A DNA stretch of 64,000 bases, from assembly GCA_022565665.1 (NCBI GenBank), contig JAIUMI010000001.1, positions 434,001-498,000 of the forward strand, in the 5' to 3' direction. This stretch comes from Glycocaulis sp. (GTDB lineage: Bacteria > Pseudomonadota > Alphaproteobacteria > Caulobacterales > Maricaulaceae). Below the pieces are notes generated by a model that was not told the DNA's origin, did no database searches, and was given only the letters and a program-made list of their open reading frames with translations. The translations under genes and the position numbers were made by a program. This document shows, piece by piece, positions 8,502-26,024 of this stretch. Position 1 is the stretch's first letter. Each line of letters starts with the position of its first letter.

Positions 8502-9200
8502 TCACTGCGCGTAAACCGGACTGATCACATAACCCTTCAGCCGGCGCGTCTCGATGAGGTCATCACCGACCACCGCGCGGATGGAGCGGCGCAGGCGCGC
8601 CACGGCCACATCGATCACATTGATCTGCGGCGGCAGGTTGGGAAAATCGGTCCACACCTCGGCCCATAGCGTGTCACGGCTTACGGGCGTGCCCGCACGC
8701 TCTGCCAGAAGTTTGAGTATGTTGAACTCCTGGGGGGAGAGTGCGATGTGCTGCCCGTTCCAATGGGCAGTGCGCGCCTTCACCCGCACCTCAAGGCGGC
8801 CCAGCACGATCACTTCAGGGTTGGCGACATATCCGGCACGCCGGGCCAGCGATTTCAGACGGGCGCGCAGTTCGGCCGCGTCAAACGGCTTGGCAAGATA
8901 ATCATCAGCGCCCGCTTCCAGCCCCTCCACGCGCTGATGGGCCTGGCCAAGGCTGGACAGGACCAGGGCCGGTGCCGTCACGCCCATTGAGCGAAGGCGC
9001 GCCAGAACCTGCAAGCCGTCCGAGCCATCGGTCTCGATCACCCGGTCTATCACCAGCACGTCGAAGGCCGAGGCCCCGGCAAGAGCGGTTCCCTCGGCTC
9101 CTGAACCGGCCCGCACCAGCGTCCATCCCGTTTCGGTGGAAATCGCCTCGTGCGCACAGGCCGCCCACTGGTCTTCATCCTCGATCATCAGGATCCGCAT
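8502..9200 (-). CDS. OmpR/PhoB-type response regulator (orphan)
   Basis: A receiver domain (residues 1-115) is followed by a winged-helix DNA-binding domain (about 130-230). The phosphoacceptor is Asp52 in the strand VLVID, the acidic pocket is EDED near the N-terminus, and the conserved lysine is in YLAKPFD. I chose the ATG at 9200 because GGGGGAG lies just upstream and the protein then begins MRILMIEDED; an in-frame ATG at 9224 would add eight residues. That upstream ATG overlaps the stop of the protease gene (TGATG), so the two genes are one transcription unit. No histidine kinase is adjacent. The nearest candidate is the orphan kinase at 24.6 kb, on the far side of the caspase/CHAT cluster. 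Direct-repeat boxes at 10721-10782 are candidate binding sites. Confidence 0.93.
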   Translation of the reverse strand: MRILMIEDEDQWAACAHEAISTETGWTLVRAGSGAEGTALAGASAFDVLVIDRVIETDGSDGLQVLARLRSMGVTAPALVLSSLGQAHQRVEGLEAGADDYLAKPFDAAELRARLKSLARRAGYVANPEVIVLGRLEVRVKARTAHWNGQHIALSPQEFNILKLLAERAGTPVSRDTLWAEVWTDFPNLPPQINVIDVAVARLRRSIRAVVGDDLIETRRLKGYVISPVYAQ

Positions 9201-9223
9201 CCCGTTCTCCCCCGCCAGTTCCA

Positions 9224-10663: not shown

Positions 10664-10720
10664 GGATTCGGCTCCCGGTCTTCTGGCGCACACAATGCAA
10701 ATGCCTTGCGAACACATCTA

Positions 10721-10782
10721 CTGACAAGCCCTGTCAGGTTTGAGCACTTGCAGAGACCGCGCTTTCTGACAAATCCTGACAG
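10721..10782. promoter_or_regulatory. Two direct-repeat boxes in a divergent promoter (candidate response-regulator sites)
   Basis: Two 17-bp elements, CTGACAAGCCCTGTCAG (10721-10737) and CTGACAAATCCTGACAG (10766-10782), match at 14 of 17 positions. Each holds two CTGWCA half-sites spaced 10 bp apart, the geometry expected for a dimer of an OmpR-type regulator. They lie 58 and 103 bp before the HtrA start and 139-200 bp before the secreted protein at 10921. The link to the regulator encoded next door is inference. Confidence 0.6.
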
Positions 10783-10920: not shown

Positions 10921-11598
10921 ATGAAAGCCTCTTCTTTGCTTGCAGCCACCGCGGCCATCGCCTTGTGCGGCGCCGCTATCGCCCTCGATGAGGAGGGCAC
11001 CAATATCGCCGAGGGTGAGCGCAGTGGTGAAACCACTGGCGTTGAACTGCTGGCGCTGTCCCACGAGCTTTACAGCTATGGCGTGGACGCACGCGATCCG
11101 CTGGCCGTGATCGTGGCCGCGCGTATCCGTCAGGGCATTGACGTGGAAGAGCGCGAATACGAACTCGCCGAGCAGGATGGCGAGGCTGAAGAGGCCGATA
11201 TCGAGTTCGCCTCAGCCGAAGACATGCTCGATGAAGCCCGCGTGCTGGCACGCGGCGACGAGACCCTGTCCTCGCTGATTGCGGAAACCGAAGCCCAGGC
11301 CGCCCGCGGCCGCGTGGGCGGTCCGGGCCGGGCCAGCGGCTGGGTCAGTGCCCGTGGCACCACCAGCTACAACATCTCCTTTCGTGGCGGTGAACGCGCA
11401 GCGGTGTGGGCCAACGGGCCGGGCCGTACCGATCTGGACATGTATGTCTATGACCAGAATGGCAATCTGATCTGCCGGCATATCGACTACACCGACCGGA
11501 TGTCCTGCTTCTGGACGCCGCGCTGGACCGGCAATTTCCGCGTGGAGATCCGCAATCTCGGCAATGTGGGCGTCAGCTTCAACATGGTCACCAACTGA
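10921..11598 (+). CDS. Small secreted protein with C-terminal pre-peptidase-like beta domain
   Basis: The 225-residue product starts at an ATG preceded by AAGGAG and has a Sec signal peptide (cleavage near residue 21). A helical, very acidic middle (about 22-130) precedes a beta-rich C-terminal domain (about 140-225) with two cysteines (LIC and MSCFW) and the ending VTN. The last ~70 residues resemble bacterial pre-peptidase C-terminal domains found on secreted proteases. The same fold and residues (Cys...Cys-x-W-x-P-x-W-T, ending TN) recur in the lipoprotein at 24013-24600, so the two are paralogues at the two ends of the cluster. Function is unknown. It could be a substrate, inhibitor or targeting partner of the proteases. 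Confidence 0.85.
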   Translation: MKASSLLAATAAIALCGAAIALDEEGTNIAEGERSGETTGVELLALSHELYSYGVDARDPLAVIVAARIRQGIDVEEREYELAEQDGEAEEADIEFASAEDMLDEARVLARGDETLSSLIAETEAQAARGRVGGPGRASGWVSARGTTSYNISFRGGERAAVWANGPGRTDLDMYVYDQNGNLICRHIDYTDRMSCFWTPRWTGNFRVEIRNLGNVGVSFNMVTN

Positions 11599-11635
11599 CC
11601 GGATACCGCTTCCGGAGGCTCCCGCCGGAAACCGG

Positions 11636-11683
11636 CTGGCGGGCGGTGTGAGGGTGTCGGGCCCTGTTCGCACTGCCCGCCAG
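11636..11683 (+). other. Hairpin between secreted protein and caspase genes
   Basis: A 13-bp stem with one mismatch (11636-11648 with 11671-11683) and a 22-base loop lies in the 121-bp gap. No T run follows, so it is not a classical terminator. It may partly separate expression of the small secreted protein from the protease operon, or stabilise the mRNA end. Confidence 0.45.
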
Positions 11684-11719
11684 AAGGGAGCACCGGAACT
11701 GAAACGGGGAGGATGAGGA

Positions 11720-14056
11720 ATGATCAGGACGCACACCCTGCTGGCGGCAATGACCGGCCTTTTCCTTCTGATCACCGCCCCGCTTTACGCCAGCACGCCC
11801 CAGCGCCACGCCCTGCTGATCGGGGCGTCGGGCTATGACGAGGAACGCATCGGGCCCGGCGTGGAACTGTTCGGACCGCGCAATGATGTCGCGCTGATGA
11901 TCCGCGCGCTGCGCGCCTATGACGTGCCGGACGCCAACATGCACGTGCTCGCCGACGGGCTGGACCAGACCGGCATTGACTTTGCCGCCCATGGCGAGCC
12001 AGTGCGCGAGGAGATCATGGCTGCTTTTACGCTAATGCTGGAGCGGGTGCAGCCTGGCGACGAGATTCTTGTCTATTTCTCCGGCCACGGTTCTCGCCAG
12101 CCCCAGCCCGAAGACGCGCCCATCCCCGAAGCCAACGGGTTTGACGAAATTTTCCTCCCCCTGGATATCGGCGCCTGGGAAGGGGCGCATGGCGACCGGC
12201 AGGCAGGCGTAAGGAATGCCGTTATCGACGACGAGATCGGCGAGTTCCTCGACGCGCTGAGAGAGCGCAACGTGTTCGTCCGGCTGGTGGTGGATACCTG
12301 CCACTCCGGCGGTGCCAACCGGGGGGCGGGGCCGGGCGGCGAGTTCCGCACCCGCGCTGTCACCGAAGACATGCTGGGCATACCGCCCGAGGAGTTGCTG
12401 GCCGCTGAACGGCGGGCGCGTACGACACGCTCTGGCAATGCCGTCACCCGGCCGGAAGCTTCCATTCCCGTCGGCGGCGAAGGCGGCTTTGTCGCCTTTT
12501 ACGCCGCCCATTCCGGCCAGCTCGCGCTGGAAGGGCTGATGCCGATGATCGGCTCGCCGGACGCACGTAAAAATCTCGGCGTGATGACCTTTCACATCGC
12601 CAACGGCCTGATGCAGGGCGGTGTCGCGACCTATCGCGAACTCGCCTACCGGGTGCTATCGGGCTATAATGACTGGGGCAGCCGCGCTCCCGCCCCCCTG
12701 TTCGAAGGCGATCTTGATCGCACCCTTCTGGGGCAGGAAGGCTCTATCCGCACCCCCTACTGGCAGGCCCGCCACCTGGCCCGCGATACCGCAGAGATCG
12801 AGGCAGGCGCGCTTGACGGTATCGGCGAGGGCGCGGTGTTCGAAATCGTCGTGCGTGATCCGGACACACAAGGCCCCCACCCCTCCTTCCCCGGCCCCTA
12901 TTATGTGGAGGCCATCGAGGTCGGCCAGACCGGCACACGCGCGGTGCTGACCGGCTTTGAAGGGCACGAGGCGGCCCGCGCCCTGCCCGGCCGCACCGCC
13001 TTCATGACAGCGCGGTTGGTTGATCCTGGCGTGCGCTTCACCCTGAGTGTTGCGGTGGAAAGTGCACCGGATGCACCGAGTGCGCAGGAGCAGGCCGCCA
13101 TGACGGCGCTGACCCGGCTGGCGGGTGCCAATCCCGACACGCTGATGGCTCCGCTGGAATTCCGCCCCGCGAGCCAGCCCGCCGATGTGCGCATCCGCGT
13201 GCAGGACGAGGCGATATGGCTGTTACGGGGCGAGCCGGACATCGTCGCCACGGGGCGCGACCGTTCCGCCCGCATCCCGCTGGAACCCGGCACCGGGCCG
13301 GATGCGCTGATGAGCATGATCGAGGCCGAGCTGCAAAAGCTCGCGCGGGTACGCAACCTTCTCAATGCCGCGAGCGCGCTGCAGGGCTCCGCCGGGCTGT
13401 CCAGCCTGCACTATGAGGCCTTTGTCTGGCGGGCCACGCCGCCGCGCCTGTCTGACAATGCGCGCGCGCCCGATGACTGGGCCTGCTCGCTGCCGAGCCC
13501 GGACGCCATCCCTGACGGCGCGGTGGCGTTCAGCGAACTCGGGGCCAGCGATCTGGACGCGCTCGACCTTTATCACTGCGACATCGTCTATGTGCGCCTG
13601 ACCAATACCGGGGACCGGCCCATTGACGTGACCCCGCTCTATATCGACAGCCAGGCGGGCGTCTATCGCCTGCCCTTCCTCGGCCCTGCCACCACGACAC
13701 GGATCGAGCCGGGCGAAACGCCGCGCATCGTCTGGGCGGGTCTGCGCACGTTTGACTGGACAACGGGCCAGCCTGCGAGTTCGGGGCTTGAGCGTCTGGT
13801 CCTCTTGGCCGTGGAGCGTGAACGCGGCGCAGCGGTGCCGCTCGACTTCTCCTTCCTCACCCAGACCAGCCTGACGCGCTCTGGCGATACCCGCGTCGAT
13901 GCCGCCCAGCAATCCGCCCTCGGCCAGCTCATGGGCATGGCCGCCTTTGGCGGGTCGGCAACCCGCAGCGCCCGCTCCCGCCCCGCACTCGACGCACAGG
14001 CGGGTACGATCCTCTTCCAGTGGCGGCTTGTCCCGCCGGGCGAGCCGGGGAGCTGA
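11720..14056 (+). CDS. Exported caspase-like (peptidase C14) protease
   Basis: The 778-residue protein has a Sec signal peptide (cleavage near YAS, residue 25), a caspase-type domain (about 28-320) with the catalytic dyad His123 (YFSGHGS) and Cys194 (DTCHSGG), and two beta-rich C-terminal regions of no assigned family (about 370-520 and 590-770). GGGGAGG lies before the ATG. Metacaspase-type enzymes cleave after basic residues; most bacterial ones are cytoplasmic or fused to sensors, so an exported form is noteworthy. It is the first gene of a tight run (4-bp gap, 4-bp overlap, 4-bp gap) with two TPR proteins and a CHAT protease, which implies a joint function in the periplasm. Substrates are unknown. 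Confidence 0.92.
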   Translation: MIRTHTLLAAMTGLFLLITAPLYASTPQRHALLIGASGYDEERIGPGVELFGPRNDVALMIRALRAYDVPDANMHVLADGLDQTGIDFAAHGEPVREEIMAAFTLMLERVQPGDEILVYFSGHGSRQPQPEDAPIPEANGFDEIFLPLDIGAWEGAHGDRQAGVRNAVIDDEIGEFLDALRERNVFVRLVVDTCHSGGANRGAGPGGEFRTRAVTEDMLGIPPEELLAAERRARTTRSGNAVTRPEASIPVGGEGGFVAFYAAHSGQLALEGLMPMIGSPDARKNLGVMTFHIANGLMQGGVATYRELAYRVLSGYNDWGSRAPAPLFEGDLDRTLLGQEGSIRTPYWQARHLARDTAEIEAGALDGIGEGAVFEIVVRDPDTQGPHPSFPGPYYVEAIEVGQTGTRAVLTGFEGHEAARALPGRTAFMTARLVDPGVRFTLSVAVESAPDAPSAQEQAAMTALTRLAGANPDTLMAPLEFRPASQPADVRIRVQDEAIWLLRGEPDIVATGRDRSARIPLEPGTGPDALMSMIEAELQKLARVRNLLNAASALQGSAGLSSLHYEAFVWRATPPRLSDNARAPDDWACSLPSPDAIPDGAVAFSELGASDLDALDLYHCDIVYVRLTNTGDRPIDVTPLYIDSQAGVYRLPFLGPATTTRIEPGETPRIVWAGLRTFDWTTGQPASSGLERLVLLAVERERGAAVPLDFSFLTQTSLTRSGDTRVDAAQQSALGQLMGMAAFGGSATRSARSRPALDAQAGTILFQWRLVPPGEPGS

Positions 14057-14060
14057 GACC

Positions 14061-15227
14061 ATGTGGACCGCCCTGCTTTTTGCCAGCGCACTGGCCGCCC
14101 AGTCGCCCGGACCCTATTCCAGTCTGCACGGCGACGCCGCCACGGCCTGCACACAGGCAGAAGGCGAGATGGCAGCTGGCCGCTTCAAGCAAGCCGCCGC
14201 CCTGTTCCAGACCTGCGAACGGGGTGCTCGCACCGGATTGAACCTGGAGCGGGGAGAGCAATGGGCCCTGCAGGCCCATATCAACCGCCGGATGGCAGCC
14301 GCGCGCGAGGCCGATGGTGACACCGATGGCGCGCGCAATGCCGTCTACATCGCCGAACGCTACGAGCAGCTGGCCCGGCAGATCCCGGATCATGCGCGCG
14401 ATACGCAGATCCGCGCCATGTTTGATGAAGGCCGCTACGCTGAAGCCGAAGCCATCGCGCTCACCCTCCTCGCCGAGGCTGAAGCCGGAGAGAGCACGTT
14501 CAGCACGCACAGCCGCCTGCACGGGCTGGCGCGCACGCTATTGCCGCAAGGGCGCGCCCAAGAAGCCATTCCACTTCTGGAACGTGCCGTCGATGCGGCC
14601 AGAACCAGCGGCGAACGCGGTGAACCCTTTGTCTACCTGAATGACCTAGCCGAAGCGTATTTCGACACGGGCCGCTTCACCCACAGCGCGGCCATACTTC
14701 GCGGTCTCTATGAGGGCTCCGACGGCTCGGCGCGGGAGACCTATGGCAATAATCTCGCCCGAGCGCTCGACGGGGCAGGCCTGCACGATGAGGCGGAAAT
14801 CCTGCTGCGCAGTGCGGTGACCGATGCCAGGGCCAGCGATGGCCGCATGGGCTCCAACCCCCACAGGCTGGCACGTGTCCTGTTCAACCTCGCGCGCAAT
14901 CTGCAGGCGCAGGGACGCCATGACGAAGCCGCCAGCCTGTTTGCCGAGTCCGCCGCCCTCACCGTGCAAAGGCGTCCGGCGGGCCATACCGACATCATTG
15001 CGGCCCACACCTGGCTGACAGGCCACACGCTTACCCGCACCGGCGATGCGCAGGCTGCGCTGAACGGTGCGCGCATATTGAGCGCCAATCTCGACCGCTA
15101 TCTCGCCTCGGGCGGAGAGGGAGAGGAGCGCCAGCGGGCGATCCAGAATGCCGGAGAGCCGCAAGCCCTCTTCACCCTGCACGTGGAAGCCGCCTGGGCC
15201 GCTGCCAATCCTGGAGACAGACCATGA
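14061..15227 (+). CDS. Exported TPR protein (first of two)
   Basis: The 388-residue product begins four bases after the caspase stop. It has a short signal-like N-terminus (WTALLFASALAAQ) and is otherwise almost entirely helical, with degenerate tetratricopeptide repeats across about 35-360 (for example AEAYFDTGRF and NLARNLQAQGRHDEAASLF). TPR arrays bind other proteins. It carries no enzyme motif and is likely an adaptor or substrate-recognition subunit for the caspase or CHAT protease. Its stop overlaps the next start (ATGA), a sign of coupled translation. The C-terminal segment LHVEAAWAAANP recurs almost unchanged in the next protein, so the two TPR proteins are related. Confidence 0.85.
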   Translation: MWTALLFASALAAQSPGPYSSLHGDAATACTQAEGEMAAGRFKQAAALFQTCERGARTGLNLERGEQWALQAHINRRMAAAREADGDTDGARNAVYIAERYEQLARQIPDHARDTQIRAMFDEGRYAEAEAIALTLLAEAEAGESTFSTHSRLHGLARTLLPQGRAQEAIPLLERAVDAARTSGERGEPFVYLNDLAEAYFDTGRFTHSAAILRGLYEGSDGSARETYGNNLARALDGAGLHDEAEILLRSAVTDARASDGRMGSNPHRLARVLFNLARNLQAQGRHDEAASLFAESAALTVQRRPAGHTDIIAAHTWLTGHTLTRTGDAQAALNGARILSANLDRYLASGGEGEERQRAIQNAGEPQALFTLHVEAAWAAANPGDRP

Positions 15228-17233
15228 CCGAACGTATTGCGCCACGCGCCATCCGGCTTCTCGCCTCGGCCTGCCTCACCCTCTGCGTCCTCCCGGCGAT
15301 TAACGCCAATGCGGCGGGACTGCACGCATCAGGCGTCCAGCAGGCCGGTATCCCGCCACAGGACCTCGCCGCCATCGAACGCCACAATGCGGCTGCCGAG
15401 ACCGCCTTCCGCCAGAGCGATTTCCGCACCGCCACGCGCGAATTCGAGGCCGCCTTCCTGATCTATCACCGCCATCTTGGCCTGCAGCATCCGCTATCGG
15501 CCGTAGCCGGTGCAAACATGGGCATGGCCATGCTGGGGCAGGGCCGGTTTGCCGAAGCGCTTCAAGTGCTGGAAATCGCGGATGAAATCCTCGCCGACGT
15601 GGATCCGCAGAATGCCCGGCGCCCCGGTATACAGCGCGCCATGGAGATGGCCCGCTCCCGGCAAGATCCTGGTGCGCCCGCAGGCGCGCAGCCAGCGCCG
15701 CAACCGCAACAACGGCCTGCACCCGGCCCGGCTCCGCAGCCGATCGCCTATGACAGTCCCGACGCGCTCAATAATGAGGCCGCGCGCGCCTATCAGGCCG
15801 GGGATTATGCCCGCGCCGAGACGGGCTTCCTGCAAGTGCTCGCGGCCCATGAGAGAGCGGGCTCGGGCAATAGCGAGGCGGCAGGCGTCGCCTGGGTCAA
15901 TCTTGGCGAGGTCTACAGCCAGACGCAGAGGCTCGGCGAAGCGGAGAACGCGCTCGCACGCGCCCGCGCCATCTTCACCGCCCTTGCTCCCGACCACCGC
16001 TATCTGGCGGTGGTGAGCAATAATCTCGCTTCCGTACAGAACCGTCAGGGCGGGCCTGCCGCCGCACTGGCGGGCTATGAAGCCGCTCTTGCCAGCATGC
16101 GCGCGACCTTCGGGGCAGACCATCCCAACACAGCCGCCGCCATGGGCAATGTGGCCGGGGCCTATCTGGCGCTGGGGCGGGTCCACGAGGCCCGGCCGTT
16201 TCTGGAGCAGGCTCGCGCCATCGAGACCGCCCACCACGGCGCAGGCTCGGCGGAGGGCTTTGATACGCTAAGCGGGCTGGGACAGGCCTATCTTGATCTC
16301 GGGCTTTATGGCGAGGCGATCCGGCTTCAGGAGGAGGCGATTGCCGCCTTTACCCGCGCCGAAGACGCCAATCCCCGGCATCTGGCTGTGCTGCGCACCC
16401 GTCTTGGCCGCGCCCAGCAGCAGGCCGGACTATCGGCGCTGGCGGAACGCACCCTCACCAGAGCGCTTGCCGAAGCTGAAACCGCATTCGGCCCCGGCAG
16501 GCTGGAGACCGTCGCCGCGCTAAGCGCTCTGGCATCCGCGATTTTCGATCAGGGCCGGTTCGGCGATGCGGCCCACCTGCAACGCCGCGCGCTGACCGAA
16601 GCCGAGAGCCTGACCGGCCCCAACGCCGCCAGCACGCTCGGTGCGATGCAGAGCAATCTGGCTGGCACCTTGCGCATGCTGGGCGAGCTGGACGAATCTG
16701 AGCGCCTTTATCGCGCGGCCCTCGCGGATGCGCGCACCCGGCCCGGCACGGTGGAGCTTGCCACCAGCCTTGAAAACCTTGCCGGACTGCGCCGCCTGCG
16801 CGGTGATCTGGATGAAGCCGCGCGCCTGCAGGTCGAGGCGCTGACGCTCTATCGCGACACGCTGGGCGAGACCCATCCCCAGACCCAGCGCGCCCGCGCC
16901 AATGCCGGCACCACGCTGGGCCTTGCCGGTGATCATGCCGGCGCGGAAGGGCTGATGCGCGGCGGGCTGGAAGGGATGGAGGGCCGTGTGCCCGAGACCC
17001 ATCGCGCCCTGCTGATCGCGCACTCCAATCTCGGCTGGCTCTATCTGCGCCACATGAACCGCAGCGCGGACGCGTTGAGGCTTTACCGCACCGTATCCGC
17101 CTCCCTCATCGCCACCGCCCGCGTTGAAGGCGAAGCCAGCGAAACGGCGGAAGCCGGTCTTCTGCGCCGCCGTAACGATCTCTTCCAGCTCCATGTCGAT
17201 GCGGCGTGGAGCGTGGCCAACCCGAACGGATAG
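15224..17233 (+). CDS. Exported TPR protein (second of two)
   Basis: The 669-residue protein has a Sec signal peptide (cleavage about residue 30, NANA|A), a proline/glutamine-rich linker at about 145-175, and a long array of kinesin-light-chain-type TPRs from about 180 to 630 (units such as NLGEVYSQTQRLGEAENAL and NLAGTLRMLGELDESERLY). It ends with the LHVDAAWSVANP tail shared with the preceding TPR protein. No catalytic motif is present. Genome order (caspase, TPR, TPR, CHAT) suggests that the helical scaffolds which are fused to the CHAT domain in the gene at 21078 are here supplied as separate chains. Confidence 0.88.
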   Translation: MTERIAPRAIRLLASACLTLCVLPAINANAAGLHASGVQQAGIPPQDLAAIERHNAAAETAFRQSDFRTATREFEAAFLIYHRHLGLQHPLSAVAGANMGMAMLGQGRFAEALQVLEIADEILADVDPQNARRPGIQRAMEMARSRQDPGAPAGAQPAPQPQQRPAPGPAPQPIAYDSPDALNNEAARAYQAGDYARAETGFLQVLAAHERAGSGNSEAAGVAWVNLGEVYSQTQRLGEAENALARARAIFTALAPDHRYLAVVSNNLASVQNRQGGPAAALAGYEAALASMRATFGADHPNTAAAMGNVAGAYLALGRVHEARPFLEQARAIETAHHGAGSAEGFDTLSGLGQAYLDLGLYGEAIRLQEEAIAAFTRAEDANPRHLAVLRTRLGRAQQQAGLSALAERTLTRALAEAETAFGPGRLETVAALSALASAIFDQGRFGDAAHLQRRALTEAESLTGPNAASTLGAMQSNLAGTLRMLGELDESERLYRAALADARTRPGTVELATSLENLAGLRRLRGDLDEAARLQVEALTLYRDTLGETHPQTQRARANAGTTLGLAGDHAGAEGLMRGGLEGMEGRVPETHRALLIAHSNLGWLYLRHMNRSADALRLYRTVSASLIATARVEGEASETAEAGLLRRRNDLFQLHVDAAWSVANPNG

Positions 17234-17237
17234 ACCC

Positions 17238-19001
17238 ATGCTGAGGAATTCACCCGTCCGCCTTGCCCGCGCCCTTCTGGCCTCCGCCGCCCTTGCCGGC
17301 TGCGCACTGTCAGGCGCTGCCGCCGCACAAGGTTCCACCGCCTGTGCCGATGGCGCGATGAGCTATGAGTGCCTGCGCGCGGAAGGGTACTGGGCTGCCC
17401 AATGGGCCATCCAGACCTCCGCCACCGAGGCCCTGTCACAGGTGGGGGCACGCTTTGCCTCCGGCGATGATGCGCTGGGCCTCATGGTTGCCGAACGCCG
17501 CCGGGCCAGCGATCAGCGCGCCGCAGCCGAGCGCAGCCTTTATGAGGCTCTCGCCCTGCCGGATGCGGCGTCACGGGAAGCGGCCACCGCCACCGCTCGT
17601 ACTGCGCTGGACGCGGCAACCACCCGGCTCAGCGAGATCGATGCCTCGCTGGCGCGCGACTTTCCCGAATATGTGGAACTGACGAGCCCCTCCCCCCTCA
17701 CCGTGGAAGGCACGCAAGCGCTGCTGGGCGCGGACGAGGCGCTGCTGCTGATCCTCGCCGGTGAGCGCGCGAGCTTCGTCTTCGTCATCGACCAGGACGG
17801 CATTGACTGGGCGCGTATCGAGGTGACCTCGGCCGAGCTCGCTGAAGCGGTGAACGTGCTGCGCGCCGGGCTCGATCTCGATCATGGGCGGGGACCGTGG
17901 AATGCGGTGTCGGTGCAGACCGCTTCTGCGGCGGCCAGCCTGCCGGTCTTTGACCGGGCCGGCGCCTACCGGCTCTATCAGCAATTGCTGGCCCCTGTGG
18001 AGGCCCGGCTGGAGGGCAAGACCCATGTCTATGCCGTGCCGTCCGGCGCGCTTTCCAGCCTGCCTCTGGGCCTGCTGGTGACAGAGCCGCCGCAGGGGGT
18101 GGATAATGATATTGAGGCCCTGCGCTCCACATCCTGGCTGGCACGCCGCTTTGCGATGACGGTGCTGCCCTCGCCTGCTTCGCTGCGCTCTGTCACGCGT
18201 TTCGGCGCGAGCCGCGCCAGCGAGCCTTTCCTGGGCGTGGGTGATCCGTGTATCGGGGTGCGCGCAGGCGCGGGCTGTGAGCGCGCGGCGAGGCCCGGCG
18301 GATCGGCGCACAGGGGCGGCGCCACGCGCGGCGTGTTCGGGGCCGATGTAACGCGCGAGGGCGTGTTCCTGGCCGATGTGGAGGCGGTACGCGCGCTTTC
18401 TGCCCTGCCCAATACGCGCCCCGAACTCGTGGCACTCGCCGAAGCCTTCGGTGCACGCGCCGACCGGGATCTCTTGCTGGGCGATGCGGCGACCGAGATG
18501 CAATTGCGCACGATGAGCGATCTTGCCAACCGCCGGGTGATCACATTTGCCACCCATGGCCTGATTGCGGACGAGCTGCCCGGCCTTACCGAGCCCGCGC
18601 TCGTTCTCACCCCGCCCGCCGAGGCCAGCGATATAGATGACGGGCTTCTCACGGCGTCTGAAATCGCGCGCGACCTGACGCTTGACGCTGACTGGGTGAT
18701 ATTGTCGGCCTGCAACACGGCCGCGCCGGGCGGGGCGGGCGCGGAAAGCCTGTCGGGCCTCGCCAGCGCCTTCTTCTACGCCGGGGCGCGGGCGCTCCTG
18801 GTATCGCACTGGGTGGTCGATGATGCGGCGGCGCGGCGCCTCACGACCGGCACGCTCAGCGCGATGAATGCCAACCCGTCCGCAGGCCGGGCCGAAGCCC
18901 TGCGCCATTCCATGCTCTCGATGATGGATGATCCGGAGTTTGCCCACCCGGCCATGTGGGCCCCCTTCGTGCTGGTCGGCCAGAACCGCTTGGCGGAGTA
19001 G
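17238..19001 (+). CDS. CHAT-domain protease, probable lipoprotein
   Basis: The 587-residue product has an N-terminal export signal with a lipobox (LAGC, Cys22), a helical region (about 50-150), and a C-terminal CHAT domain (about 260-585). The catalytic pair His440 (FATHG) and Cys492 (LSACNT) is intact, with the usual LLVSHW strand after it. CHAT proteases are caspase-superfamily (clan CD) cysteine peptidases normally fused to TPRs. Here the TPRs are in the two genes upstream, 4 bp and less away. A cut by signal peptidase I after AAAQ is the alternative to lipidation. It is the last gene of the operon and is followed by an inverted-repeat element. Confidence 0.92.
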   Translation: MLRNSPVRLARALLASAALAGCALSGAAAAQGSTACADGAMSYECLRAEGYWAAQWAIQTSATEALSQVGARFASGDDALGLMVAERRRASDQRAAAERSLYEALALPDAASREAATATARTALDAATTRLSEIDASLARDFPEYVELTSPSPLTVEGTQALLGADEALLLILAGERASFVFVIDQDGIDWARIEVTSAELAEAVNVLRAGLDLDHGRGPWNAVSVQTASAAASLPVFDRAGAYRLYQQLLAPVEARLEGKTHVYAVPSGALSSLPLGLLVTEPPQGVDNDIEALRSTSWLARRFAMTVLPSPASLRSVTRFGASRASEPFLGVGDPCIGVRAGAGCERAARPGGSAHRGGATRGVFGADVTREGVFLADVEAVRALSALPNTRPELVALAEAFGARADRDLLLGDAATEMQLRTMSDLANRRVITFATHGLIADELPGLTEPALVLTPPAEASDIDDGLLTASEIARDLTLDADWVILSACNTAAPGGAGAESLSGLASAFFYAGARALLVSHWVVDDAAARRLTTGTLSAMNANPSAGRAEALRHSMLSMMDDPEFAHPAMWAPFVLVGQNRLAE

Positions 19002-19014
19002 AGGGGTGATTTCT

Positions 19015-19138
19015 CCGGTGTCATCCTCGGGCCGAGCGCAGCGAGGCCCGGGGATCCATGCCTGAACGGTCCCGTCTGAATCTCTCCTTGCCGGAATGGG
19101 TTCCCCGGGCGGCTGACGCCGCCGGAGAATGATACCGG
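19015..19138. repeat. Extragenic inverted-repeat element (REP/MITE-like)
   Basis: The gap between two convergent genes is filled by a 124-bp element whose two ends are imperfect inverted copies over about 45 bp: CCGGTGTCATCCTCGGGCCG at the left and, read from the other strand, CCGGTATCATTCTCCGGCGG at the right. Each half also folds on itself (CCTCGGGCC...GGCCCGGGG). This matches the extragenic palindromes scattered through many alphaproteobacterial genomes. It could act as a bidirectional terminator or mRNA-stabilising structure. No second copy was noticed in this window. Confidence 0.65.
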
Positions 19139-19141
19139 GGA

Positions 19142-20887
19142 CTACCTGCCGCCCGTGAGCAGGGTCACCAGCGAGCGCACATCGTCCAGCCGCCCGGCCA
19201 GAACCGGGCTGGCGCGCACCTCGTCGGCTTCCAGCACCTCGAACGCATCCGTGTCACCGGCCCGGCGCAGGGCGGTGATGGAGTATTTGAAAATGTCCGG
19301 TTCGCAATTGGCCCCTGTGGCAGGATCGACCGCATAGAACTGGCCGAACTGGCCGGTATTGGTGTGCAATATGCAACGCTCGTCCGGGCTCAGGGACAGC
19401 CAGATCAGGGCGCGGAAGTCATCAAGCGCGGGCCCGGCATAATCGGAATGGCCGAGCCCGCCGCCCGCTGCAAGGCTGGTATCGACCGTGCTGAGGCCTT
19501 CCACCACGACCGGATAGGGCGGGCTGGCATCGCCCGCGCGCGCGCCGCCGCCATTGATCCGGCGTGACAGGCGCAAGGCCCGGTCCCGGCTGGATGCATA
19601 GAGCGTCATGCCGGAGGCAAGATGGCGCAGGGCCGGCACCTGGCCCATGAAGACCTCGGCATCGACATCAGGCGAGGCCCACACGACCTGATCGAACAGG
19701 GGTTCGGGCGGGTCCGGATAGGTCTGCGCAAACTGTTCCAGCGCGGCCACGAGGAAGCGGTTGCCCATGGAATGGGCGACGATATGGATGCGGTCCGCCC
19801 CGGCCCCGTTCATCAGGAGGAAGATGAAATCCACCAGATCGCGGACATTCTCCTGCGTCACCTCCCGCCCATCCGCGAAATAGCCCAGCAGCGTGCCGCG
19901 CGACGGCCAGGAATAGAGCGCCGGCACGCCATCAATCTCCAGATCCACCGCCAACTGGGCGGCGCGCTCCGACGCGCCGCGGAAATCTGAATTATAGCCG
20001 TGGATGAAGAGCAGGAGCTCGCGCCGCTCGGAGGCATCCATCGCCTCGCCCAGCGCGCCGGTGAAGGCGTAATCATCGGCGAAGGGCTCCACCCGGTCGA
20101 TGATGAAATAATCAGACCGGTAGCCATCAAGATCACCCGGATAGCGCTCCCGGCGCGGAATGGAGCCGACCTCGCGGTTACGCGGCACCGACACCGTCAC
20201 CACGCCCAGATCCAGCGGGGCACGATCCGGTCCGTAGAAATTATTGGGATCGGCAGAGCCGGTGCGCGCCCGGTTGGTGCCGTAAAAGACCGGCACGATG
20301 ATATGATCAGCGTCGGCGAGCGCCTGCGGATCACGCACCAGAAACTCTGCATCCTCACGCTCCGCGCGCTGGATCAGCACGCCAAGCTGGGCCTGCATCT
20401 CGGGCAGGGCATGGAAGGCGCCCGCATCGGCAGCCATCTGCTCCACCGCCACGGCCGTTTCGCCAAGACCCAGATAATCGCGCGCCCGCACCGCGCCTGA
20501 AGCCACCAGCACCGCCTCGGCCTCTTCAAGCAGCTCACGCGCGCGGTCGAACCGGCCCTCGCCCGCTTCAAAGCGGGCTTCCGCGATCAGGCCAAACGCC
20601 CACTCGCCGCGCACTTCGTCCTGTGTAAGGGCGATCAGCTCATGGGCTTGCCGATAAGCGGAGCGCGCTGACGCCACATCGCCGCATCCGGCGCGCAGAT
20701 CGGCCAGATCGAACCAGAAGGCGATCTGTTCGCCCCGGTCCAGCTCCAGCTCGGCAAAGTCCAGCGCCGCAATCTCGCTCGCCGCCAGATCACAGCTTTG
20801 CGCGCGCGCCTGCCCCGCAGACAGGGCGGTCAGCCCTGCAACAAGCAGACAGATTGAGAAGTACTGGAACAGGCGCATCATGCTCAT
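19142..20887 (-). CDS. Exported TPR-like/alpha-beta hydrolase (DUF900 family)
   Basis: The 581-residue product has a Sec signal (cleavage after ARA, residue 29), a helical N-terminal region (about 30-185) resembling TPRs, and a DUF900 alpha/beta-hydrolase domain (about 200-470). The nucleophile is Ser373 in AHSMGN; the oxyanion strand LFIHGYN precedes it, and VPVFYGTNR marks the domain start. The family is lipase-like, with substrates mostly unknown. The ATG at 20887 follows GAGGG. It is transcribed towards the CHAT operon and divergently from the TPR-CHAT gene, inside the same block, so it is probably a partner or effector of the protease system. A paralogue is at 47619-48824. Confidence 0.9.
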   Translation of the reverse strand: MSMMRLFQYFSICLLVAGLTALSAGQARAQSCDLAASEIAALDFAELELDRGEQIAFWFDLADLRAGCGDVASARSAYRQAHELIALTQDEVRGEWAFGLIAEARFEAGEGRFDRARELLEEAEAVLVASGAVRARDYLGLGETAVAVEQMAADAGAFHALPEMQAQLGVLIQRAEREDAEFLVRDPQALADADHIIVPVFYGTNRARTGSADPNNFYGPDRAPLDLGVVTVSVPRNREVGSIPRRERYPGDLDGYRSDYFIIDRVEPFADDYAFTGALGEAMDASERRELLLFIHGYNSDFRGASERAAQLAVDLEIDGVPALYSWPSRGTLLGYFADGREVTQENVRDLVDFIFLLMNGAGADRIHIVAHSMGNRFLVAALEQFAQTYPDPPEPLFDQVVWASPDVDAEVFMGQVPALRHLASGMTLYASSRDRALRLSRRINGGGARAGDASPPYPVVVEGLSTVDTSLAAGGGLGHSDYAGPALDDFRALIWLSLSPDERCILHTNTGQFGQFYAVDPATGANCEPDIFKYSITALRRAGDTDAFEVLEADEVRASPVLAGRLDDVRSLVTLLTGGR

Positions 20888-21077
20888 CGGACATCCCTCG
20901 CCAATCTACGGCATTACGCAAAGCATACCATCGCTGGCGGGGGGCGGGGACAAGTCACGGGCCCATTTCTGTCCACCTGTCGGCAAATGTAAGCCTTTTG
21001 AACAGATTAAGAATATTTGCCAGCCCGGCCATGACCGGTAATCATGGGGATAAAGCTGGCCCGACGGGGAGGGAGCG

Positions 21078-23999
21078 ATGCACCGGGGATTATTGGCCGC
21101 CGTACTGGCCGGAGCCATGCTCCTTGCCACACCTGCTGCCGGCGCCGAAGAGGCCACGCCGCCCGTCGCCGCCAGCATTGTTGACCCCGATGTGCGCGCC
21201 CTGATCGCAGCGGCAGAAGCCATTGAAATGGAAGCTGATCCGCCCGCCGCCCGCGCCGCCTGGCAGGCCGTGTGGGATGCGGTGAGCGCGCTGGAAGGCG
21301 TACCCGAAACCGACATGGCCGAGCTTGCCAACCAGCTCGGCTCGGCTGATTTCTATGCGGGCGGACGCGAAAGCGCGCTGGTCTGGTTCGAGCAGGCCGC
21401 AGACGTGTTCTCGCAGGCCGGGCCGGATTATCTCGTTCCTCTGGAACAATCGCTCGGCAATGCGGCCTCCATCCTTGGCACGCTGGGCCGTCTGGACGAG
21501 GCCGAAGCCACCCAGCGCGAAGTGCTGGAGGTGCGCCGCCAGCTCTATCCGGAAGAGCATGTCCAGATCGCCCGCTCCTATTTCGAGCTGGGCTCGGTGC
21601 TCAATGCGCGCGGCCAGCTGGACGAGGCGATCGAGCTTGTCGAGCGTTCGCTGGTCATACGCGAGGCCGTGCTGGAGGAGGGCCACCCCTTCATCGCGAT
21701 GACGCGCGTTTCGCTTGCCGCCATTCTCACCCGCGCCTATCGCTATGAGGAGGCGGCGGATCTCTCCCGCGAGGGGGCAGAGGCGCTGGAAGCCGCACTG
21801 CCCGCAGGCCATCCCTTCATCGCCTTTGCCCAGTCCAACTATGCCGGCGCGCTCAATGCCTGGGGGCGGTATGAGGCGGCGGAACCGCTGCTGCGGCGCC
21901 TGCTGGAGGTTCGCCGGGAAACGCTGGGCGAGGCCAATCCGCAGGTCGCCGACACGCTCAACAATCTTGCCGTCTCGCTCTTTGCACAGGGCCGGGCCGC
22001 CGAAGCCCGCCCGCTCTTCCTCGCCGCCCGCGATATCTACCGGGCGGCCTCCGGCGCGGGTTCGGTAGAGGCCGCTCGCATGCAGATGAATGCGGCAGAC
22101 GCCGCCTTTGCTCTGGGTGATTACGACGCCGCGCGCGCCGAATGGGAAGACACGCTCGCCGTGTTCGACGAGGCCGGTGCGGTGGGGCTCGACCGGGTGC
22201 GCGCGCTCTCGGAACTGGCAGCCCTGCAGGCGGTGACCGGCGAGCATGACAGCGCACGGCAAAACATGGCCGAGGCGGGCTTTCTGGCAGCAAGCTATCT
22301 GCCCGGTGACCATGAACGCCAGCTCATGCTGGCCATTGACGAGGCATGGATAGATAGCCTCGCCGGTGAACATCGCAGCGAAGTGCCGGGCCATGTCATC
22401 ACCGCCGCCCGGCGGCTGGCGGGTGAGCTGGATCTGGTCAATGTGGATGGTGCACGCGATGCCGCCCGCACCCGCCAGCGCGCCTTCCGCCGCGCGCTCG
22501 ACATCGCCTATGAAGCGGGCGATAGCGATGCCGCCTTTCATACCCTGCAATATGTTCACGCGACCGGTCTGGCGCTGGCATCCGAAGCAACCGCGCTGAG
22601 GGCGCGCGCTGAAGGCGTGGACGCCGCTGCGCTGATCCGCGCGCGCCAGGAGGGCTGGCGCAATCTGCGCCGGGCCGAGGACGGCTATATCCGCCTGCGC
22701 TCGGCAGAGGGCACGCCGGACAGGGACGCCCTCGACGCAGCGCGCGAGGCGTACGAGACCGCACGCAGACAGCTCGCCGATCTGGCGGCGCCCGGCGGGA
22801 CGCACCGCGCCAGCTTTGCCAGTCTGCGCGATGTACGCGCCGCCCTTGGCCAGGACGAGGCAGTCATCGCCTTTGCCTTCACGGAAAATGGCGGCGTGGT
22901 GATGCGGGTGGATCATGGCGGTCTGGTGATGGACCGGCTGGCCATCAGCGAAGCTGAGGCCCTTTCCGCCATCACGCGGCTGCGCGCTTCGCTGGAAGCC
23001 GGTGCCGCAGGCGCGGTGGATGCGCCCTTCCCGGCAGAGGACTCGCACGCGCTCTATGCCGGCCTCTTCACACCCGCCATTCTGGACGGGCTGGAGCCCG
23101 GCACCGCGCTCTTTGTGCTGGCCGACGGGCCCTATCGCTCCCTGCCCTTCCCGGTCCTGCTGACCGCGCCGCAGGGCGCTCCCCTGCAGGGCAGTGCGGC
23201 CCTGCGCGCCGCGCCCTGGCTGATCGCGGACCATGCCGTGACCACATTGCCGGCCCTGTCCAGCCTCACCGAGCGGGAGGGGGGAGAAGAGGCGCGCGAG
23301 CCCTATCTGATCGGGTTTGGCGCACCAGCCTTTTCCGGCGCGCCGGAAAGCGAAACGATCACGCTGGCGTCCCTCACCCGCAGCGGCGGAGGGGATGCAT
23401 CCCGCGCGCTCGCCGCGCTGGCCCCTCTGCCCGGCGCGGAAGCAGAACTGATCGAGCTGGCGGCGGTGTTCGGCCCTGCCCGCTCCGATATCCGCCTCGG
23501 AGCCGACGCCACCGAAACAGCGGTGAAGACGGCCGACCTTGCCCGCGCCAGCGTGCTGGTCTTCGCCACGCACGGGCTTCTGACCGGCGAGCTGGAAGCA
23601 GTGTTCGAGCCCGCGCTCGCCTTCACCCCGCCCGAAACACCGACCGCGCTGGATGACGGTCTGCTCACCGCCTCCGAGATCGCCGGTCTGACGCTCCACG
23701 CCGACTGGGTGATCCTGTCAGCCTGCAACACGTTCGCCGCCGACGGCACGGCCCGCGCGCCGGACCGGCTGGCCCAGGCCTTCCTCTATGCCGGTGCGCG
23801 CAGCCTTCTGGTCTCCCACTGGACGGTGCGTGATGACGCGGCGGCGCGCCTCAGCGCCGGTACGGCCCGCAAGGCCGCGGGCGGACGGGCAAGGCCGCAC
23901 GCTTTTCGCGAAACCGTGCTGGAGTTCATGGCCGACGAGAGCGTGCCCGGCGGCGCGCATCCGGGGGTATGGGCTCCGTTCGCCCTGATTGGTGGCTAG
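21078..23999 (+). CDS. Exported TPR-CHAT fusion protease
   Basis: The 973-residue protein has a signal peptide (cleavage after AAGA, residue 23), TPRs over about 80-440, a helical spacer (about 440-600) and a C-terminal CHAT protease (about 640-973). Catalytic His832 (FATHG) and Cys883 (LSACNT) are present, and GGGGAGGGAG precedes the ATG. The CHAT part is clearly related to that of the gene at 17238, and the two end in matching motifs (LLVSHW, HPxMWAPF/HPGVWAPF). TPR-CHAT proteases are best known as Craspase, where a CRISPR effector activates them in the cytoplasm. This one is exported, and no CRISPR array is present, so activation must differ. Confidence 0.93.
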   Translation: MHRGLLAAVLAGAMLLATPAAGAEEATPPVAASIVDPDVRALIAAAEAIEMEADPPAARAAWQAVWDAVSALEGVPETDMAELANQLGSADFYAGGRESALVWFEQAADVFSQAGPDYLVPLEQSLGNAASILGTLGRLDEAEATQREVLEVRRQLYPEEHVQIARSYFELGSVLNARGQLDEAIELVERSLVIREAVLEEGHPFIAMTRVSLAAILTRAYRYEEAADLSREGAEALEAALPAGHPFIAFAQSNYAGALNAWGRYEAAEPLLRRLLEVRRETLGEANPQVADTLNNLAVSLFAQGRAAEARPLFLAARDIYRAASGAGSVEAARMQMNAADAAFALGDYDAARAEWEDTLAVFDEAGAVGLDRVRALSELAALQAVTGEHDSARQNMAEAGFLAASYLPGDHERQLMLAIDEAWIDSLAGEHRSEVPGHVITAARRLAGELDLVNVDGARDAARTRQRAFRRALDIAYEAGDSDAAFHTLQYVHATGLALASEATALRARAEGVDAAALIRARQEGWRNLRRAEDGYIRLRSAEGTPDRDALDAAREAYETARRQLADLAAPGGTHRASFASLRDVRAALGQDEAVIAFAFTENGGVVMRVDHGGLVMDRLAISEAEALSAITRLRASLEAGAAGAVDAPFPAEDSHALYAGLFTPAILDGLEPGTALFVLADGPYRSLPFPVLLTAPQGAPLQGSAALRAAPWLIADHAVTTLPALSSLTEREGGEEAREPYLIGFGAPAFSGAPESETITLASLTRSGGGDASRALAALAPLPGAEAELIELAAVFGPARSDIRLGADATETAVKTADLARASVLVFATHGLLTGELEAVFEPALAFTPPETPTALDDGLLTASEIAGLTLHADWVILSACNTFAADGTARAPDRLAQAFLYAGARSLLVSHWTVRDDAAARLSAGTARKAAGGRARPHAFRETVLEFMADESVPGGAHPGVWAPFALIGG

Positions 24000-24012
24000 G
24001 CGCGCGCCCGTG

Positions 24013-24600
24013 TCAGTTGGTGATCAGATAATAGGCCACCGTTCCGGCGGTCAGGTTGGTGACCTCGATATGGAAGGGCTCGGTCCAGACCGGCACCCAT
24101 TGGCAGGTCACCGGCGCAGCGGTCACCAGCGTTTCGCACAAGGTCTCGCCATCATCGGCGCGGCGTATGGCAAGGCGCAGCGTGCCGCTGCCACGGGTCT
24201 GCACCGAGACGCGCGCCGCCCGGCCGGAATGGAAGCTGTCGCGCAGCAGCGCCGCCTCGCCCGGCCCGATCACGCCGTTGCGGTAAGCCGGCCCCGCCGT
24301 GCGCCCGCGCAAGGGTGGCAGGGTCTCGCCCAGCGCCTCGGCCCGGTCACGCCAGCGCAGCGCCAGATTGTCTTCGCCTTCAGCGGGATTTGCGCCCGCC
24401 CCATCGAGCAGCGAGGCCGCAGCCAGCATGCCCGCCCCGTCATCAATCTCCTCAGCCCTGAGGCCGATATCGAGCGCGGCGAGGATCTGGCCATCGGGTT
24501 CGGCCACACTGCCGACGCTCGCACGCTCTTGCGTAGCGCAACCCGTTACGGCGAGCAGTACAAAGGCGCAGACCAGTCCGGCAGGCAGGGCAATCCGCAT
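24013..24600 (-). CDS. Lipoprotein with pre-peptidase-like beta domain
   Basis: The 195-residue product has a lipobox VTGC (Cys21), a helical middle and a C-terminal beta domain (about 125-195) with two cysteines and the pattern Cys-x-W-x-P-x-W-T, ending ITN. The same pattern in the secreted protein at 10921-11598 makes them paralogues, one soluble and one lipid-anchored, at opposite ends of the protease block. It converges on the TPR-CHAT gene with a 13-bp gap and is divergent from the histidine kinase by only 14 bp. Function is unknown; an anchored ligand, inhibitor or sensor for the proteases or kinase is possible. Confidence 0.85.
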   Translation of the reverse strand: MRIALPAGLVCAFVLLAVTGCATQERASVGSVAEPDGQILAALDIGLRAEEIDDGAGMLAAASLLDGAGANPAEGEDNLALRWRDRAEALGETLPPLRGRTAGPAYRNGVIGPGEAALLRDSFHSGRAARVSVQTRGSGTLRLAIRRADDGETLCETLVTAAPVTCQWVPVWTEPFHIEVTNLTAGTVAYYLITN

Positions 24601-24614
24601 ACGGGCACGCTCCC

Positions 24615-26024
24615 ATGGTGAACAGCCCCGCCAGTCTAACCCCGGTTCCCGCAGCGATGAAGGGTTTAAGAACCCGGCTCCTGCAATCCACCTTCGCGCG
24701 GCTTACCGCTCTGGTGGCCTTTCTGGTCAGCCTGGCATCGACCGTGATCTTCCTGATCGCCTATCTCGCCTTCGCTTTTGTCTCCGACCAGACCCTGCGC
24801 CAGCTGATCGACACCGATGCGGCAGGGCTGGTGGATATCTACGCCATTGAAGGCGATGAGGGCTTGCGCCGGACGCTCGATGACCGTCTGGCCATGCGCC
24901 CGCTGGAGGGCGAGGAACCGGTCTATCTGCTGGCCAGCCCGGACGGCGAGCGCGTGACCGGCAATCTCGGCAAATGGCCGGACGAGTTTTCTCTCGATGC
25001 CAGCTGGATACGCGGCAGGTTCCGCGTGGACGAGGCGCCCCTGCCGCTGCTCGGCCGGGCCTTCCTCATGCCACAGGATTACCGCCTGTTCGTGGGCCGC
25101 TCGACCACGCGTCAGGAAGAGGCGCTGGCCCGGCTGCGCACCATCTTCATCGCGGGTTTCTTCATCACGCTGACACTGGGCGTGGCGGGCGGGCTGATCG
25201 CGGCGGGCTGGATCATGGGCCGGGTGGAAAGGTTGAACCGGACCTGCCAGGCGGTGCGCGATGGCGCCATCGACCAGCGCGCGCCGGGCGGTGAGGGTGA
25301 GGACGAGTTCGGGCTTCTCTCGCGCAATATCAACGCCATGCTGGACCGGATCGAGCGCCTGATCAGCGCCCAGCGCGACGTGTCCGACCTCACCGCGCAT
25401 GAGCTGCGCACCCCCCTTATCCGCATTGACCGCACGCTGGTGGAGGCCGGCGATGATCCGGCCAGAATCGAGGCCGCGCGAGAGCAGCTGTCCGAAATGG
25501 GCGAGCTGATCAACTCGCTCATGGATATTTCCGCGATCAGCGCGGAGATCGGGGATAATCGCGGTCTGGAAGCGCTGGATCTGGCCGCGCTCGCCCACTC
25601 ACTCGTCCCGCTCTACGCCGATGTGGCCGCCGAGAAGAAGGCGAGCGTGAAGCTGGAAGCCAGCGGCCCGGTAATGATGCGGGGCAGCTCAGCCCAGATG
25701 GGCCGGCTGATCGCCAACCTGCTCGACAATGCGGTGAAGTTCCTGCCAGAAGGCGGGGAGGTGAAGTTGATCGTGCGCGAGGGGCCGGTGCTGATCGTGG
25801 AAGATAATGGACCGGGCGTGCCTGCCGACTGGCGCGAGCGCGTCTTCATGCGCTTTGCCCGCATCCAGCGCGGCGGTGGTCCGCGCGGGCACGGGCTCGG
25901 TCTCTCCTTCGTCCATGCCGTCGCCCGCCGCCATGGCCTGACCATAGAGGTGGAAGACGCAAGGCCCGGCAATGCGCGTCCCGGTGCCCGCTTCATTGTC
26001 CGTCCCGCCGGCGCGCCGTCATGA
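24615..26024 (+). CDS. Membrane sensor histidine kinase (orphan)
   Basis: The 469-residue protein has two membrane segments (about 28-58 and 174-199) enclosing a periplasmic domain of about 115 residues with no recognised fold, then a HAMP domain (about 200-252), a HisKA domain with His262 (DLTAHELRTP), and an ATPase domain with N box NLLDNAVKF, G1 VEDNGPG and G2 GHGLGLSF. An alternative ATG at 24657 would shorten the N-terminus by 14 residues and leave more room for promoters. No regulator gene is adjacent; the orphan OmpR-type regulator at 8502-9200 is the best partner in the window. The stop overlaps the chromate-transporter start by four bases (ATGA). Confidence 0.92.
   Translation: MVNSPASLTPVPAAMKGLRTRLLQSTFARLTALVAFLVSLASTVIFLIAYLAFAFVSDQTLRQLIDTDAAGLVDIYAIEGDEGLRRTLDDRLAMRPLEGEEPVYLLASPDGERVTGNLGKWPDEFSLDASWIRGRFRVDEAPLPLLGRAFLMPQDYRLFVGRSTTRQEEALARLRTIFIAGFFITLTLGVAGGLIAAGWIMGRVERLNRTCQAVRDGAIDQRAPGGEGEDEFGLLSRNINAMLDRIERLISAQRDVSDLTAHELRTPLIRIDRTLVEAGDDPARIEAAREQLSEMGELINSLMDISAISAEIGDNRGLEALDLAALAHSLVPLYADVAAEKKASVKLEASGPVMMRGSSAQMGRLIANLLDNAVKFLPEGGEVKLIVREGPVLIVEDNGPGVPADWRERVFMRFARIQRGGGPRGHGLGLSFVHAVARRHGLTIEVEDARPGNARPGARFIVRPAGAPS

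Follow-up and report, generated by a model that had tools for sequence, protein, structure and literature searches.

A conserved exported CHAT and metacaspase-like protease locus in Glycocaulis with two beta-domain proteins as candidate substrates

We analyzed a 64,000-nucleotide stretch (the window) of a Glycocaulis sp. contig (JAIUMI010000001.1, positions 434,001 to 498,000; GenBank assembly GCA_022565665.1). Eight of its genes (g1 to g8) encode a metacaspase-like caspase, two CHAT proteases, two TPR proteins, a DUF900 hydrolase and two small beta-domain proteins (g1 and g8), and they are flanked by genes for an OmpR-type response regulator (RR), an HtrA-type serine protease and a sensor histidine kinase (HK). 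We propose, with a probability of about 0.55, that this exported CHAT and metacaspase system cleaves its own beta proteins after a linker arginine, under two-component control. The genes and their domains, the intact catalytic dyads, the export signals, the synteny, the linkage of beta to CHAT genes and the association of the arginine with CHAT are read from the sequence itself. From these we infer the cleavage, its site and the protease responsible.

Results

A linker arginine accompanies CHAT linkage

The proteins g1 and g8 are homologous (24% identity over the alignment) and share one layout, with a helical N-terminal part, a short linker containing Arg-Gly and a beta domain resembling PPC domains and jelly rolls. 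Members of this beta family were compared within one genus (g21; 131 genomes, 66 with a beta match and 43 with a CHAT match) by using 67 beta rows from 63 genomes, a row being called linked when a CHAT gene was found within 200 bp of it and on its strand. Arg preceded the invariant linker Gly in 34/34 CHAT-adjacent proteins and in 0/25 unlinked ones, which carried Lys (13), Ala (4), Leu (3), Tyr (2), Val (2) or Met (1) at this place (of the 27 unlinked rows, 25 include the position). Ten paired and 9 unlinked rows had prompted the idea; the comparison then gained 24 paired and 16 unlinked rows that had played no part in framing it. The count omits G427 (broken frame), the unlinked G437 and G477 (no position) and the weak G429 and G475, and six further rows in caspase/two-component clusters stand outside it (4 Lys, 2 Arg). 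Across the aligned last 215 residues the Arg column was the best separator of linked from unlinked rows, the runner-up reaching 31/34 versus 1/27. Outside this genus, Arg-Gly was present in 25/25 hinge-bearing beta rows from CHAT-carrying genomes. Left out of that count were L081 and L114 (no hinge), L089 and L116 to L119 (weak, domain only), L216 (27 bits), L113 (no Arg-Gly and no CHAT match in the genome), the third, truncated beta open reading frame (ORF) of L214, and L215 (Arg-Gly with a caspase close by; CHAT not searched for). Because the linker Arg tracks CHAT linkage, g1 and g8 are the likeliest substrates. The association is perfect in g21 but rests on few events: in a tree built without the Arg column the unlinked rows fell into two clades, giving one well-supported independent pair and two pairs in all.

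The place of this residue was read from a structure model of g1 (model mc4769d8ad3f8; 18 sequences; mean predicted local distance difference test score (pLDDT) 80.1; predicted template modelling score 0.71; residues 1-32 below 50). The model predicts helices at 36-57, 60-71, 99-110 and 114-128 and a beta sandwich from residue 136, and it places RGR 129-131 between helix 114-128 and strand 136-142. A Foldseek search with the model returned 3afg (E = 1.3e-6), a collagenase (ColH) domain (3jqw) and a PPC domain (5sv5, E = 1e-3), with p24 GOLD domains about equally good; the predicted beta domain resembles in fold the PPC/beta-jelly-roll domains of Tk-SP and collagenases. This likeness is one of fold only. 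Neither g1 nor g8 matched a Pfam family, PPC (PF04151) included, above the family cut-off (at E ≤ 0.1 only DUF4398, 0.051), and a profile search gave 9ues (E = 0.042) and 3afg (E = 0.052); PPC identity by sequence was rejected. Unlike PPC domains, which are protease appendages, g1 and g8 are separate small proteins with a helical N-terminal part. Two Cys of the beta domain are invariant in 18/18 aligned rows (a few more distant rows, L081 and L102 for instance, are without them), consistent with an oxidizing compartment.

Beta genes adjoin CHAT and two-component genes in several families

Beta matches occurred in 56 of 398 genomes of the order and in 8 of 385 genomes of the class (two of these from the order); 43 of the 56 were taken, the other 13 having best E-values of 5.3e-7 to 9.7e-4. 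In several families beta relatives adjoin CHAT proteases and two-component genes, with caspase, TPR and DUF900 genes optional. The arrangements, some of them complete or nearly complete clusters, include HK-RR-beta-beta-caspase-CHAT (L214, a further family), HtrA-beta-CHAT-RR-HK-beta-caspase (L185), RR-HK|beta-caspase-CHAT (L106), beta-caspase-CHAT with RR-HK (L199), HK-RR|beta with TPR-CHAT nearby (L079, L080, L110), HK-RR|beta-CHAT (L111) and CHAT-beta|RR-HK (L115). Four loci (L107, L108, L112, L114) have RR-HK and beta with no CHAT in the stretch, and CHAT lies elsewhere in all four genomes. Within g21, a beta gene lies no more than 200 bp away on the CHAT strand in 34 of the 43 CHAT-positive genomes; the remainder comprise one broken-frame beta gene (G427), three with beta in the same caspase cluster (G362, G479, G487), three with CHAT near a contig end (G443, G461, G475) and two without a beta match (G422, G482). 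Among 99 relatives, 3/16 beta-positive genomes had no match to the CHAT profile. The Cys motif is present in 38/39 CHAT ORFs (the remaining one being a tail in a different frame), the caspase relatives examined keep GHG and D-x-C, and His and Cys are both preserved in those relatives of CHAT and caspase that were looked at. Beta proteins of the g1/g8 type are the members most consistently linked to CHAT genes.

Two side observations concern these loci. A single g21 genome (G383; L101/L102) holds a very large cluster with three CHAT proteins, one caspase, two beta proteins and RR-HK. At L079 (8595-9278) and L080 (15929-16627), loci of two genera, a LuxR-type helix-turn-helix protein follows the beta gene (GerE, 1e-4 and 2e-4, just below the cut-off), and such a regulator may be part of these two loci.

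Extent and content of the locus

Coordinates and assignments are collected in Table 1. The first-pass annotation had described eight ORFs at 10921-24600 with these protein families and three catalytic dyads, and all of this was right on the window ORFs and Pfam. Its account of tight spacing was borne out by measurement (g2-g3 gap 4 bp, g3/g4 ATGA overlap 4 bp, g4-g5 gap 4 bp), g1 and g2 being 121 bp apart. The caspase p20 family (PF00656) takes in g2 at 39.1 bits (cut-off 21.4), its dyad being invariant in 9/9 rows; the CHAT family (PF12770) takes in g5 at 169.7 bits and g7 at 148.6 bits (cut-off 24; CHAT E-values 1.3e-49 and 3.3e-43), both with His and Cys present, and TPRs were matched as well. 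The Glycocaulis genome has only two CHAT matches and two beta-family matches, all inside the block.

Table 1. Features of the locus in window coordinates
Feature	Position	Strand	Evidence
RR, OmpR-type response regulator	8502..9224	-	neighbor of HtrA in 6/6 compared genomes
HtrA, Do/HtrA-type serine protease, two PDZ domains	9224..10717	-	Trypsin_2 2.8e-34, PDZ; synteny
Palindrome CTGACAAGCCCTGTCAG, candidate regulator site between HtrA and g1	10721..10737		pattern search, synteny
Second, imperfect copy CTGACAAATCCTGACAG, 45 bp on	10766..10782		inspection of HtrA|g1 region
g1, exported helical and beta-domain protein, candidate substrate	10921..11598	+	alignment, structure model, fold matches
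g1 Arg129 codon, first residue of linker RGRV, candidate P1 residue	11305..11307	+	position, model linker, co-variation in relatives
g2, exported metacaspase-like caspase, His123/Cys194, long C-terminal region	11720..14056	+	Peptidase_C14 8.6e-10
g3, TPR protein, weak signal	14061..15227	+	Pfam, orthologue N-termini
g4, exported TPR protein	15224..17233	+	Pfam, orthologue N-termini
g5, exported CHAT protease without own TPRs, His440/Cys492	17238..19001	+	Pfam
g6, exported DUF900 alpha/beta hydrolase	19142..20887	-	DUF900 1.8e-42
g7, exported TPR-CHAT protease, His832/Cys883	21078..23999	+	Pfam
g8, lipoprotein paralogue of g1, candidate substrate	24013..24600	-	alignment, N-terminus
g8 Arg98 codon (RGRT), counterpart of g1 Arg129	24307..24309	-	position, alignment
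HK, sensor histidine kinase	24615..26024	+	HATPase_c 8.8e-19, HAMP

The block itself is real, but as a unit 10921-24600 is too small, since RR, HtrA and HK, which the first-pass annotation had missed, also keep their places at its ends. By reading, RR consists of a receiver and a winged-helix C-terminus, and base 9224 is common to the RR and HtrA ORFs; HtrA matched degP_htrA_DO at 1.9e-89, under that model's cut-off. HK is in place in 5/6 compared genomes and adjoins RR in the sixth (G039, 38% identity). The first-pass annotation also recognized that the two small proteins are related, and it treated them as a side part, which does not fit their standing as the most consistent CHAT-linked members. 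A mobile-island origin was rejected: block G+C (0.65-0.68) lies inside the window range (0.62-0.69), the sole tRNA of the window is at 34090 and not beside the block, and no integrase was noticed in the block's gene list. Beyond HK, an ORF at 26021-27328, presumably chromate-transporter-like, shares 4 bp with the HK gene and is conserved in 3/6 compared genomes (G001, G002, G003).

Conservation of the block in relatives

The conserved neighborhood on which the first-pass annotation had staked its proposal exists: the block recurs in six further genomes, which belong to three genera, although G039 has it only in reduced form. The co-location of the block genes exceeds chance, since it is conserved in these six. 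The order RR-HtrA|g1-g2-(g3)(g4)-g5-g6-g7-g8|HK is kept in four genomes of the same genus (G001, G002, G003, G005) and in one of another genus of the same family (G053). G001 lacks g4, G002 lacks g3 and g4, and G005 has a TPR ORF without a match where g3 would stand. The third genus (G039) has HK-RR-HtrA|g1-g1-g2-g5, without g3, g4, g6, g7 and g8. Not every block gene is needed, as each of these five is absent in some genome. Caspase matches were found in 10 of 99 relatives, 7 of them strong (own genome counted), and one genus member (G004) has none.

Further afield, an unclassified alphaproteobacterial bin (L031) has a caspase, two TPR ORFs, CHAT and DUF900, with a LuxR-type regulator beside a kinase. 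A Hyphomicrobiaceae contig (L034) carries a caspase 27% alike over most of the g2 length, beside a metalloprotease-like ORF, with no beta or CHAT gene within its 12 kb. In G039 (L024/L025, about 16.1-24.1 kb in joined coordinates) further ORFs stand directly after the CHAT gene, which we take to be a bacterial alpha-2-macroglobulin-like protein and a PbpC-type penicillin-binding protein; a protease trap next to exported proteases may be apt, or chance.

A palindrome between HtrA and g1

The intergenic palindrome has arms CTGACA and TGTCAG around AGCCC, and the pattern CTGACAAN{3,5}CTGTCAG has a single exact match in the Glycocaulis genome, at this site. It stands at the same place in G001, G002, G003 and G005 (one with 1 mismatch), and a similar element aligns in G053 and G039. 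At ≤ 1 mismatch, 6/21 genomes match: the five locus-bearing genus members, each here and at one more site, and G063, with two. Reversing the pattern as a control left one match across the 21 genomes, and G004, which has no locus, gave none for the palindrome at ≤ 1 mismatch. G003 has an extra match between g1 and g2. Synteny and the tie of the palindrome to the locus suggest that RR may bind it and control the locus. One-mismatch copies in like surroundings occur in the own genome and G001 (L221 3420-3436, L224 3230-3246), between genes presumably for an isocitrate-dehydrogenase-like and a MeaB/ArgK-like protein, and are perhaps a second target.

Export signals

Export was assessed with a hydrophobicity script and by visual inspection rather than by a signal-peptide program. 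On this measure the N-terminal 35 residues of the g1 to g8 orthologues were more hydrophobic than at least 90% of the protein's own inner stretches, apart from a single g8 row (71%), and the negative control RR scored 11-62%. Orthologues of all eight genes conserve a hydrophobic N-terminus and a plausible cleavage site; the g3 signal is short and weak by eye. The g8 lipobox Cys is found in 6/6 orthologues by eye and in 5/6 by pattern. The AGC of g5 is not conserved in the other 6 orthologues, and g5 therefore looks Sec-exported and was rejected as a lipoprotein. In all likelihood, then, the block is exported and its products are not cytoplasmic, as the first-pass annotation had held for all eight proteins. 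The same annotation set the system apart from known ones by its export, a feature that is not in itself new for bacterial caspases: PMC3501461 counts 46 sequences whose single N-terminal helix may be a signal peptide and assigns an extracellular location to 30 of 671.

Discussion

We describe a conserved exported set of proteases and beta proteins, found mostly in aquatic-type bacteria. In g21, the genus compared in most detail, the keeping of Arg where CHAT adjoins, and its lack where CHAT does not, suggests a protease with a dedicated substrate outside the cytoplasm. In the proposed mechanism the CHAT proteases (g5 with separate TPRs in g3/g4, g7 with fused TPRs) and the metacaspase-like g2 would sit in the cell envelope with g1 and g8. 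A CHAT protease would cut after the Arg preceding the linker Gly (R129 in g1, R98 in g8) and so separate the PPC-like beta domain from the helical part; in the lipoprotein g8 the beta domain would thereby lose its membrane anchor. Control of the locus would fall to the neighboring RR/HK pair together with HtrA, acting at the HtrA|g1 palindrome, and the fragment set free may itself be sensed. The freed domain could signal to HK, act on the envelope or bring about lysis; feedback, a part in envelope stress and the purpose of the whole are conjectural. An Arg at P1 agrees with enzymes of this kind, CHAT and metacaspase being members of clan CD. PMC4357240 describes clan CD peptidases, separase included, as preferring Arg or Arg/Lys at P1, with the exception of caspases, legumain and MARTX-CPD, and lists separase, metacaspase, paracaspase, clostripain and gingipain as cutting after Arg or Lys; orthocaspases are likewise reported to cut after Arg or Lys (PMC6426788).

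Several observations weigh against this proposal. The tree needs only about two losses of linkage, and a sign test has no power; with so few losses, the Arg/CHAT association may be partly descent. Thirteen of the 25 unlinked proteins carry Lys, likewise basic, and four caspase-cluster proteins (G362, G443, G479, G487) read Lys-Gly-Arg despite the presence of CHAT. Arg-bearing beta genes of G147, G395 and G401 have CHAT elsewhere in the genome, and the rest of the linker (GVxSSPFGxGP) is kept without CHAT (L100, L190, L192 and other unlinked g21 genes). Of the 19 CHAT-positive genomes among the 99 relatives, 6 lack a beta match, and L031 has no beta gene in 21 kb, so the beta gene is not indispensable. 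As for control, the RR and HK profiles are generic and do not by themselves establish orthology, and the palindrome occurs in 0/11 intergenic regions of beta/two-component loci of other families, where a common palindrome was accordingly rejected.

The most durable rival, which we consider unlikely, is that the Arg/CHAT association only marks an old split of the beta family into two lineages, with many residue differences between them, and has no tie to proteolysis. The roughly two independent changes speak for it, and the linked and unlinked sets do differ in further columns. No other column, though, reaches 34/34 versus 0/25, and Arg is kept in very distant CHAT-linked rows. In the non-Lys unlinked clade (12 rows), five different residues (A, L, V, M, Y) stand next to a Gly that is itself kept, a pattern resembling released constraint.

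Somewhat less probable still is envelope quality control, in which caspase, CHAT, HtrA and DUF900 would degrade proteins generally in the periplasm, governed by a two-component system for envelope stress, and g1 and g8 would be adaptors or chaperones rather than substrates, their Arg serving CHAT binding. HtrA and RR/HK keep their places, HtrA recurs in L185, and a binding site would lead one to expect the Arg/CHAT association equally well; in our judgement, however, a single linker residue between two domains, followed by Gly, resembles a cut site more than a docking surface. Envelope self-killing or antiphage defense, with infection or damage setting the proteases on g1/g8 or other targets until lysis, is improbable: caspase and CHAT proteases do serve in conflict systems (PMC8195603, PMC10028731), the locus is patchy among relatives (judged by the caspase matches) and the PADLOC model named caspase matches g2 at 2.4e-10, but that model is generic, g7 matches BovA at 4.5e-4 with no other weighty defense call, and the G+C of the block, the distant tRNA and the gene list, in which no integrase was noticed, also speak against it.

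Cleavage of g1 and g8 by the CHAT proteases would have its closest counterpart in Craspase, where Csx29 (TPR-CHAT) cleaves Csx30, a two-domain partner encoded beside it, and thereby regulates transcription; there too a regulator lies in the locus and proteolysis is read as signaling (PMC10028731). Csx29/Csx30 is cytoplasmic and RNA-guided, and its cut near residues 427-429 falls in the C-terminal domain and not in an inter-domain linker (PMC10028731), a further point against our proposal. Here, by contrast, the block has no CRISPR gene and bears export signals, with a two-component pair in the regulator's place; no Cas gene of a type III-E Craspase was found among the assigned ORFs at 8502-27328, the rest of the genome not having been searched for it. 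What was observed here for a possible Craspase-like pair is gene adjacency and the Arg association. DegS-RseA is similar in that an envelope protease cuts a dedicated partner to alter transcription (PMC10028731), with a serine protease and an anti-sigma factor in place of the caspase-fold proteases and two-component pair seen here.

Like bacterial metacaspases (orthocaspases, C14B), g2 matches Peptidase_C14 and metacaspase-4 and has D-x-C before the catalytic Cys; unlike them it has about 430 extra C-terminal residues, conserved between orthologues and without a Pfam match, and its model (pLDDT 62.5) is too poor for these domains to be named. The nearest relative of CHAT is separase. Separase takes Arg at P1 (PMC4357240, PMC4626109), a likeness to set beside its being eukaryotic and nuclear; searched against solved structures, CHAT gave no match to E = 0.01 and two chance matches to E = 10, with separase not among them. 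The Pfam matches for g1 to g8, HtrA and HK included no gasdermin family, and nothing in these ten proteins points to EACC1/ternary NTP-dependent conflict systems (caspase_w_EACC1 22 bits versus a cut-off of 140; no STAND or MoxR NTPase). None of the literature matches listed dealt with such a locus, although this is no proof of its absence from the literature.

Bacterial caspase-fold proteases are mostly discussed as cytoplasmic enzymes of defense or death, and their natural substrates are seldom known. This locus supplies candidates for the substrate, the cut residue and the regulator of an exported pair. We raise, tentatively, the possibility that it is the first case of dedicated signaling between a caspase-fold protease and its substrate in the bacterial envelope, with freed beta domains informing the two-component pair in a form of extracytoplasmic sensing. 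If our proposal is true, a protease family of the apoptosis type would act as envelope sensors, and the locus would offer a tractable model for CHAT proteases outside CRISPR.
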